NCBI RefSeq assembly: GCF_002591915.1
Contig: NZ_NIHB01000001.1
Location: 1,369,590 to 1,433,589, forward strand
Direction: 5' to 3'
DNA from: Marinicella litoralis
GTDB lineage: Bacteria > Pseudomonadota > Gammaproteobacteria > Xanthomonadales > Marinicellaceae
DNA length: 64,000 nucleotides
How positions within the stretch are numbered: position 1 is the stretch's first letter; every line of letters begins with the position of its first letter. The position numbers and the translations under genes were made by a program. Of the stretch, positions 6,423-9,019 are shown one piece after another. The notes below the pieces were generated by a model. It saw only the letters and a list, made by a program, of their open reading frames with translations. It was not told the DNA's origin and did no database searches.

Positions 6423-7532
6423 TCATGGTTGCAGAATACCAGGTTTGCCGGCTTCGATTAATTTTTCATTGATGAGAGGAATCAATGCAGCGGTGAATTT
6501 GGGGGCATCCTCAGAGTGTAGATGTGACCATTCAGGGATGCGGAATCCTTGTAATGTTTCATGGTCTTCAAAATGAACTCCGATGGATTGTGTGTCTTTA
6601 AGTAAACGCTCCCAGTATTCTGCTCGTGGCTGCAAGCGATTTTCACGAGGGCGGTAATCACCACTGGATGGTAGGCGAATGAATATGACATCGCCGCCCC
6701 TCGCTCTGATCGAATCCACGTCCTTGATTACGCCAGCCAAGTATTGATCCAAGTCAAATTCACTTGGCCCTCTTTTGTCTCCCATTTCCATAAATCCGCG
6801 CCATGTCATTTGTGCTTTGTGTTGATATTCCATATCATCTTCTACTTTCCAAAACATTTTGGTGTTGCGATCTTTGGAAGTTTGAGATAACTCCCAAACG
6901 CCCATCCTCGGATCAAACACCCCCTCTCGATTGGGTAATTCAATGCGTTCGATTAAGGTGAACAGTGGCCAGTTTGCCAAGTCATAAAAAGCCAAATGGG
7001 GCTCAATTAACATACTGATTTGTTGGCTCATCCACTGTGTTGGGCTTTCTTTAGCATAATACTCAGGCGCTTCAGCTGATATGCCGCCACCATTCCTGAA
7101 AAAACTGCCTGGTGTGATACCCACATAGAGTAAACCTTTGAAGTCTTCATCCTTGGCCAAATCTGCCAATATGGGCCGCGGATTGGTTCCTGCCAATGCC
7201 AGTTGAATGGGCCTGGTTCCGGTCATTGACTCATAGGTGTCTAGGTCAAAATCAAACAAGATGCGACTGGCACCGATGATGGCCACCGTATTTTCATTGC
7301 CTTGATCAATGAGTCTTCTTTGGATGGCCCACAATCCGTTGTTATCTATATAGGCTTCAGGCTCATAACCCCAAATAACCCGGGCATTGTACTCCCAGGC
7401 AATCAATCCGAGGGTCATCAATAAAAATGCCAAAAACATGGCCGGCTTCCAATGAATATCAGGAATGGGTCTGTTCTCGTGGTAATAATAGTCTTTTGAT
7501 TCAATCTCAGAATTGGAAATAGATGAAGGCAT
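6423..7532 (-). CDS. membrane-anchored SGNH-hydrolase-like partner of an MBOAT O-acyltransferase
   Basis: A 369-residue protein with one N-terminal membrane helix (about residues 31-47) and a large domain predicted outside the inner membrane. IIGASR (GAS at 87-89) has the position and form of the nucleophile block of SGNH/DltD/AlgJ-like proteins. The C-terminal WSHLHSEDAP (about 335-344) could supply Asp and His, although the order is not the classic DxxH. The start codon lies inside the end of the upstream MBOAT gene (26-base overlap) with a GGGGAG ribosome binding site, so the two are co-translated. By analogy with AlgI-AlgJ/AlgX or DltB-DltD it would receive acyl groups from the MBOAT protein and place them on a surface polymer. 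The acceptor is unknown. Confidence 0.7.
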   Translation of the reverse strand: MPSSISNSEIESKDYYYHENRPIPDIHWKPAMFLAFLLMTLGLIAWEYNARVIWGYEPEAYIDNNGLWAIQRRLIDQGNENTVAIIGASRILFDFDLDTYESMTGTRPIQLALAGTNPRPILADLAKDEDFKGLLYVGITPGSFFRNGGGISAEAPEYYAKESPTQWMSQQISMLIEPHLAFYDLANWPLFTLIERIELPNREGVFDPRMGVWELSQTSKDRNTKMFWKVEDDMEYQHKAQMTWRGFMEMGDKRGPSEFDLDQYLAGVIKDVDSIRARGGDVIFIRLPSSGDYRPRENRLQPRAEYWERLLKDTQSIGVHFEDHETLQGFRIPEWSHLHSEDAPKFTAALIPLINEKLIEAGKPGILQP

Positions 7533-8928
7533 CGCCGCTCCCCTGTGTAATGATGATTAAAAACAGCATCAGTCCCCATAGGGTACCTAATACTGGCCAT
7601 GGCGTTTTTTCTACCACGGCTTCTAATGAAGTGCTTCGCATTCGCCAATGGACAATGACCATGCCCAAGGTGACCACACTGACTAAAATGATGTTGATGG
7701 TGGCCAAGACAGCCTTGCCTTCGGGGTTAAAACCCAGCATGGATTTAACCATACCAAAGGCTTGTGGGAATGATTGCGCGCGAAAGAACACCCAAGTGAT
7801 GTTAATCAAAAGATAAGTCAACAGTGCCAGCAGAATTTGTACCAGTCGCCTTTTAACCCAGTTGACATTGCCCCAAGTCCTTTTCATCAGCCTTTCAATC
7901 GACAAATACAAACCATGTAAACCACCCCAAACCACAAAAGTCCAACTGGCTCCATGCCAAAGGCCACCTATCAACATGGTCAGCATCAAGTTGATATATG
8001 TTCTGATGGCGCCTTTTTGGTTACCGCCCAAAGGTATATATAAATAGTCTCGCAACCAGGTTGATAAAGAGATATGCCACCTGCGCCAGAAGTCAGAAAA
8101 CCCAATGGCAGCATATGGGTAATTAAAGTTACTGGGTAAAGAAAACCCAAGGGTTAATGCCACCCCAATGGCTGTGGTTGAATAACCCGCAAAATCAGAA
8201 AATATTTGTCCCGCAAAAGCGAAAGTGCCTAACCAAGCATCGATGAAAGAAACAGCGCCTCTGGCTCCATAAACATCATCGGAAATACTTGCAAGAATAC
8301 CATCGGCAATGACAACCTTTTGAAACAAGCCCAAGGTGATTAGGCCCAAGCCCCATATCAACATGTTTCGAGAGGCTTTGCGCTCTTTTTCAAATTGAGG
8401 CAATAAATGAGTGGGACGGACAATTGGCCCGGCCACCAGTTGTGGGAAGAAGGTGACAAACAGGGCGAAATCCAGAAAGCTTTTACTGGGTTTCGCGCGC
8501 TTGAAATAGACATCCAATGAATAAGCCATGGTTTGGAAGGTATAAAAGGAGATACCAACTGGTAAGATGATGCTCCATTCTGGAACTTGGTAATCCACCC
8601 CAAAACTGGCCATCAAAGACTGCCAATTTTGCAGTAAAAAATCACCGTATTTAAAGTAAGCCAAAATACCCAGGTTGACTAAAATACTGATCAGTAACAG
8701 CATTTTTCGAGTGGTTTTATGTTCAGTTTGATGGATTTTATGAGCCACTTTCCAATCTATGATGGTTGAAATCCAAACCAATACAATGAAAGGCGGATTC
8801 CATGCAGCGTAGAATAAATAACTGGCAATCAGTAAGTTGGACTTTTTGACGCGCCAAGAAAAAGGTAAATGGTGTAAAAACAACACAATGGCAAAGAAGA
8901 CGATGAACGTCAAAGAATTAAATAACAT
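7507..8928 (-). CDS. MBOAT family O-acyltransferase (AlgI-like)
   Basis: A 473-residue polytopic inner-membrane protein with the AlgI/DltB signature. It starts MLFNSLTFIVFF, contains YFKYGDF and LPVGISFYTFQ..AY..D, then FPQLVAGPIVRP, FWRRWHISLSTWLRDYLYIPLGG and the LWHGASWTFVVWGGLHG block with the conserved histidines (about residues 322 and 336). These enzymes move acyl groups, usually acetyl, across the membrane onto exported polysaccharide. The partner SGNH-like gene overlaps its end. Its ribosome binding site is an uninterrupted run of nine G six bases before the ATG. No alginate or other polymer synthase gene is adjacent; the export cluster at 59-64 kb is a possible source of the acceptor. 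Confidence 0.93.
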   Translation of the reverse strand: MLFNSLTFIVFFAIVLFLHHLPFSWRVKKSNLLIASYLFYAAWNPPFIVLVWISTIIDWKVAHKIHQTEHKTTRKMLLLISILVNLGILAYFKYGDFLLQNWQSLMASFGVDYQVPEWSIILPVGISFYTFQTMAYSLDVYFKRAKPSKSFLDFALFVTFFPQLVAGPIVRPTHLLPQFEKERKASRNMLIWGLGLITLGLFQKVVIADGILASISDDVYGARGAVSFIDAWLGTFAFAGQIFSDFAGYSTTAIGVALTLGFSLPSNFNYPYAAIGFSDFWRRWHISLSTWLRDYLYIPLGGNQKGAIRTYINLMLTMLIGGLWHGASWTFVVWGGLHGLYLSIERLMKRTWGNVNWVKRRLVQILLALLTYLLINITWVFFRAQSFPQAFGMVKSMLGFNPEGKAVLATINIILVSVVTLGMVIVHWRMRSTSLEAVVEKTPWPVLGTLWGLMLFLIIITQGSGDAFIYFQF

Positions 8929-8934
8929 GGTGAT

Positions 8935-8943
8935 CCCCCCCCC
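8935..8943 (-). promoter_or_regulatory. homopolymeric G9 tract serving as ribosome binding site of the MBOAT gene
   Basis: On the minus strand nine consecutive G lie exactly where the Shine-Dalgarno should be, six bases (ATCACC) before the ATG at 8926-8928. No other purine-rich site is present nearby. A tract of this kind can slip during replication, and a length change would alter pairing and spacing to the start codon. See the finding on possible phase variation. Confidence 0.6.
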
Positions 8944-9019
8944 AATTGATACAACTTATTTTTTATTATTGTCAATAAATTATATCACAGGATTTTCACG
9001 GAAGATTGATTGCCCATCA

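Follow-up and report, generated by a model that had tools for sequence, protein, structure and literature searches.

A run of nine G residues on the minus strand (positions 8935-8943), lying just before the start codon of a gene for an MBOAT (AlgI/DltB-type) O-acyltransferase, probably serves as the Shine-Dalgarno sequence of this gene and of the SGNH-fold partner gene that overlaps it. On this reading the tract is a long-used G-rich site that has been lengthened repeatedly, and a change in its length would have a graded effect on translation at most. Positions are given in the window, which is the whole 64-kb stretch of DNA that was analyzed.

Results

The G9 tract lies in the leader of an MBOAT-SGNH gene pair

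The G9 run is separated from the MBOAT start codon (ATG, 8926-8928, minus strand) by a 6-nt spacer, ATCACC (8929-8934), and the interval 8929-8943 is accounted for by tract plus spacer. The minus strand reads ...GTATCAATT GGGGGGGGG ATCACC ATG TTA TTT..., in agreement with the preliminary description, which had placed nine minus-strand G six bases before the ATG of an AlgI-like gene. It had also reported no other ribosome binding site, and the motifs GGAG, GAGG, and AGGA are indeed absent from the 22 bases 5′ of the ATG. No in-frame ATG, GTG, or TTG occurs between the upstream TAA codon and the MBOAT ATG, and the MBOAT start is aligned with the starts of its orthologues, which places the tract in the leader and outside the coding sequence. 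Translation through the tract from an upstream start was rejected, as ATT is the sole in-frame candidate. The G9 run is most likely transcribed leader preceding a spacer of fixed length. The last two Gs together with the spacer (GGATCACC, 8929-8936) form a sense match to the segment just before the 16S anti-Shine-Dalgarno, when compared with the 16S 3′ end as known from E. coli; this likeness is probably due to chance, and pairing with that segment would be impossible.

The gene downstream of the tract (7507-8928, minus strand) encodes a protein of 473 aa, which is assigned to the MBOAT family by a match to PF03062 (E 5.5e-32) and the conserved histidine motif GGLWH325G, and which also contains an RRWH285 motif. 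By sequence its closest solved structures are those of DltB (E about 1e-24), and it scores 150.5 bits against the DltB equivalog (NCBIfam TIGR04091), far under the 375-bit cut-off. The adjacent gene (6423-7532, minus strand) encodes a protein of 369 aa with one predicted N-terminal helix, likely a membrane anchor, and returned no sequence match in Pfam, NCBIfam, or the PDB. Its orthologues share two invariant motifs, G87-x-S89-R (GxSR) and E334-x-S336-H337 (ExSH). Its predicted structure, a model of low confidence (pLDDT 62), matches SGNH entries at Z 10-12.5, with PatB as the top Foldseek match (E 5.8e-3), and the predicted core matches the peptidoglycan O-acetyltransferases PatB and OatA at Z 10.7-10.9. 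The serine block (GxS), the C-terminal His block, and the predicted fold together assign the partner to the SGNH hydrolase/transferase fold.

The SGNH and MBOAT genes share 26 nt (7507-7532), the start of the former overlapping the stop of the latter, and the N-terminus of the partner (MPSSTSSS...) therefore reads the MBOAT C-terminus (DAFIYFQF) in another frame. This overlap is exact in most orthologues, including homologues in Planctomycetota and Verrucomicrobiota. Combined with the predicted SGNH fold, it makes tandem expression of the two genes, and acyl transfer by their products, reasonable, which upholds the earlier view that the MBOAT gene is coupled with an SGNH gene. Going by their families, the two proteins likely act together in acyl transfer, as AlgI-AlgX and PatA-PatB do (PMC9558356). 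As in AlgI-AlgX, PatA-PatB, and DltB-DltD, an MBOAT membrane protein is encoded beside an SGNH-fold protein, and acyl transfer across the membrane is predicted. Unlike in those systems, no alginate, peptidoglycan, or teichoic-acid gene set is evident in the surroundings; the present pair also differs in the low DltB equivalog score and in a 369-aa partner with no sequence match in the three databases searched. O-acetylation of a surface polymer by the pair is a plausible, family-based guess.

A G-rich site is retained in front of the gene across orthologues

We collected 68 MBOAT orthologues, mostly of the same order, by searching the family, the order and additional families within it, and named genomes; in the class sample, none was found outside the order at the threshold. 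Upstream of the start codon, these orthologues show a G peak at -7 to -11, and the G9 tract falls at the same position. G makes up 65-69% of bases at -8 to -11 and drops on either side, with T at 1-6%. Within the Shine-Dalgarno zone, G runs reach a maximum length of two in 18 orthologues, three in 7, four in 25, five in 10, and six in 5, while maxima of seven, eight, and nine occur once each. Runs of at least four G are therefore present in 43 of 68 orthologues (63%), compared with 12 of 255 genes (4.7%) in the own-genome background, a sample of 464 kb. In genes of high-GC relatives the figure is 16 of 164 (9.8%), or 17.7% with a generous choice of start, and the orthologues exceed even this most generous value (Fisher 3e-11); a small low-GC sample of 45 genes gave 13-24% (Fisher 6e-5 against the most generous value), all of these comparisons being between orthologues that are mutually related rather than independent and background genes whose starts were set by a crude rule. 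Among more distant homologues, mostly from Bacteroidota, Verrucomicrobiota, and Planctomycetota, 2 of 18 carry a run of at least four G.

A site made purely of G is not essential, since runs of at least four G are missing from 25 of the 68 orthologues, and 24 of the other 43 contain a canonical GGAG, GAGG, or AGGA motif in addition. The proposal that the tract acts as a Shine-Dalgarno sequence nonetheless holds up well: it is in the right place, no alternative motif is present, and the orthologues keep a G-rich site there. Retention of a G-rich site at this position is shown by the comparison of orthologues, which also gives good support to the Shine-Dalgarno role. A literature search found no report of an MBOAT gene with a poly-G Shine-Dalgarno.

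Nine G is an outlier in this genome and the tract has lengthened repeatedly among relatives

The G9 tract is the sole G or C run of at least seven in the window and the longest G/C run in the 3.35-Mb genome. Genome-wide there are 12 runs of at least seven and 2 of at least eight, vs. 114-214 and 25-52 expected from base and dinucleotide composition. The genome therefore avoids long G/C runs, which makes a G9 in front of a start codon an outlier. None of the other 11 runs of at least seven lies at a start codon, being found instead in coding or intergenic DNA, and a genome-wide set of G-tract switches was rejected on this basis. One of them, a G7 run at L213 (G000:C1:176125-176131), is formed by the GGLWHG motif codons of another MBOAT paralogue, an ordinary coding constraint; a search recovered seven MBOAT matches in this genome. 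The one other run of eight (L225; G000:C17:133818-133825) is intergenic, with no 80-aa reading frame at the run. With nine G, the tract has the length at which contingency repeats are considered able to slip (about eight or more G/C).

Tract length differs between species, with nine G here (G000), four in G017, five in G023, six in G370, seven in G025, and eight in G046. The nearest relative, whose protein is 84% identical, has a G4 run followed by a different spacer, the next relative has G5, and another family member has G7. In the 3.6 Mb of G025, only four exact 7-G matches occur, its G7 tract among them. The eight orthologues with G6 or longer appear as eight separate expansions on a quick maximum-likelihood tree. 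Closely related species with G4-5, in contrast, share the same length (G856, G858, G860, and G862; G833 and G834). Length thus differs between species, mostly from four to nine G, and is constant among these sister species. The repeated lengthening of a G-rich site is probably due to slippage, judging from the sequences compared. Separate expansions along with constant G4-5 tracts in sister species fit slippage on a conserved G-rich site, and are not proof of switching within populations.

Modeling is consistent with a graded effect of tract length at most

Pairing with an assumed E. coli-type 16S tail was modeled at -5.5 kcal/mol for G4, -8.4 for G5, -10.5 for G7, and -11.0 from G8 on. In the leader of this genome, modeled exposure of the start codon falls from 0.54 with G6 to 0.38 with G8, 0.19 with G9, and 0.04 with G10, as the tract pairs in the model with the opening codons of the membrane protein, which are rich in pyrimidines. 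When the folding model was applied to 13 orthologues, the fall in exposure with tract length was not consistently repeated, and burying of the start codon, although seen in this genome, was not adopted as a shared mechanism. In E. coli, an 18-base poly-G leader performed poorly as a ribosome-binding site (PMC3310771), which cautions against equating a longer G run with a stronger site.

The preliminary description had suggested on/off switching by tract length, and this part of it was not supported. The tract lies outside the reading frame, 3′ of either candidate -10 (described below), and 5′ of the fixed 6-nt spacer, so that it does not switch expression through reading frame or promoter spacing. 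Insertions and deletions in it leave the frame and the final spacing unaffected, and modeled 16S pairing is flat beyond G7-8. In addition, there is no wider set of long G tracts at start codons, and the G4-5 sister species are constant. An on/off switch is thus unlikely, a graded effect on translation is possible in light of the modeling, and a quantitative effect is the most that the evidence supports.

In the explanation we favor, a G-rich site of GGGG or longer would pair with CCUCC of the 16S rRNA with one G-U wobble. The G run would slip in replication and would have lengthened independently in several lineages, reaching nine G here. Since the distance to the ATG is set by the 3′-most G, the added Gs would mainly provide extra pairing registers and would be tolerated. 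Changes in length would then have no more than a graded effect on translation of the MBOAT gene and of the SGNH gene that overlaps it, and in this genome a tract of ten or more G may bury the start codon through the modeled pairing with the first codons.

A true contingency locus, in which frequent length change within populations would render the MBOAT-SGNH pair phase variable, most plausibly in a graded manner, is rather unlikely. It would account for the longest G run occurring in a genome that avoids such runs, for the wide variation among relatives, in which the run has separately expanded to 6-9 G, and for the modeled drop in start-codon exposure from G8 to G10 in this genome. Mycobacterium tuberculosis offers a precedent in the 5′ leader of espR, where single-base G-tract indels alter translation (PMC11898584). 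The features that speak against an on/off switch weigh here as well: a leader tract leaves the frame and final spacing intact, no second gene start in the genome has a tract of this kind, and sister species with G4-5 are constant in length. Shine-Dalgarno repeats in Campylobacter were, moreover, treated as quantitative rather than ON/OFF (PMC13317227). We consider it unlikely, too, that G-run Shine-Dalgarno sequences lengthening independently across the order act on a two-gene acyl-transfer system as a slippery rheostat that would produce graded cell-to-cell differences in surface acylation.

Quite unlikely as well is a neutral by-product, in which slippage lengthened a G-rich Shine-Dalgarno with expression unaffected. 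The flat modeled 16S pairing from G7-8 up, the lack of a consistent link between length and structure in relatives, and length differences with no obvious tree pattern would all be compatible with neutrality, but a run of nine kept at a start codon, in a genome that elsewhere eliminates long G runs, is not obviously neutral.

Two candidate promoters were read from the sequence upstream of the tract. The first (P1; 8979-8987, minus strand) is a putative extended -10, TGATATAAT, in which a perfect TATAAT is preceded, one base before it, by TG; it has no -35 match, and its start site would be at about 8972, for a leader of about 43 nt. The second (P2; 8946-8975, minus strand), downstream of P1, would consist of TTGACA (8975-8970), 18 nt, and TATCAA (8951-8946). 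Scans of the region for consensus promoters and terminators returned nothing; the promoter scan, which requires T at position 6 of the -10, did not report P2. No Rfam match was found in the region, and an inverted-repeat scan of the leader found none at its thresholds. RNA folding predicts a 14-pair, AU-rich stem with G-U pairs directly 5′ of the tract. An AT-rich imperfect inverted repeat (TGATATAATTTATT ... AATAAGTTGTATCA, 8946-8986) adjoins the tract upstream and overlaps the candidate -10; it was not found in relatives, which show no common leader structure.

P2 would place +1 within 8943-8935, raising the idea that transcription starts inside the tract and RNA polymerase adds extra G by reiterative initiation, with nucleotide pools or the choice of start site controlling the operon. 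This is very improbable, given that P2 is not reported by the promoter scan, that the perfect TATAAT with its TG lies upstream, and that the leader of a transcript initiated inside the tract would be extremely short. Least probable is that the exact length of nine reflects a homopolymer sequencing or assembly error: homopolymers of at least eight are common error sites and the assembly is in 21 contigs, but runs of seven and eight occur at the same place in other genomes, and an error of one would leave the conclusions unchanged.

Discussion

The proposed G9 Shine-Dalgarno resembles the poly-G/C contingency loci of Campylobacter and Neisseria in that a G tract of outlier length for the genome is found at the gene of a membrane enzyme, in this case an MBOAT protein that likely modifies cell-surface material. 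Those loci switch via frameshifts in coding sequence or via promoter spacing, whereas the tract here sits in a Shine-Dalgarno sequence, and they vary measurably within strains, whereas our comparison covers one genome per species. Contingency tracts also occur as a set per genome, as in C. jejuni 81-176, which has 18 poly-G/C tracts, 15 of them in reading frames (PMC13317227), while the tract described here is single. The espR gene likewise has a G homopolymer in its 5′ leader, the length of which has been proposed to alter mRNA folding and translation, with frequent indels across 26,903 clinical isolates (PMC11898584). In espR, however, the tract lies 144 bp upstream of the gene, where the leader begins, and is not the Shine-Dalgarno, whereas the tract reported here is probably the Shine-Dalgarno itself.

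The case is ordinary in kind, and the comparative pattern is modestly interesting. If tract length does not affect translation, the gene offers a useful caution that long G tracts beside surface-related genes may be retained G-rich Shine-Dalgarno sequences and not switches. If length does tune translation, this would be a simple case of the ribosome-binding site itself being a mutable repeat, and an example from outside the host-adapted pathogens that are the usual subjects of such studies, for which relatives with four to nine G would provide ready-made natural variants.
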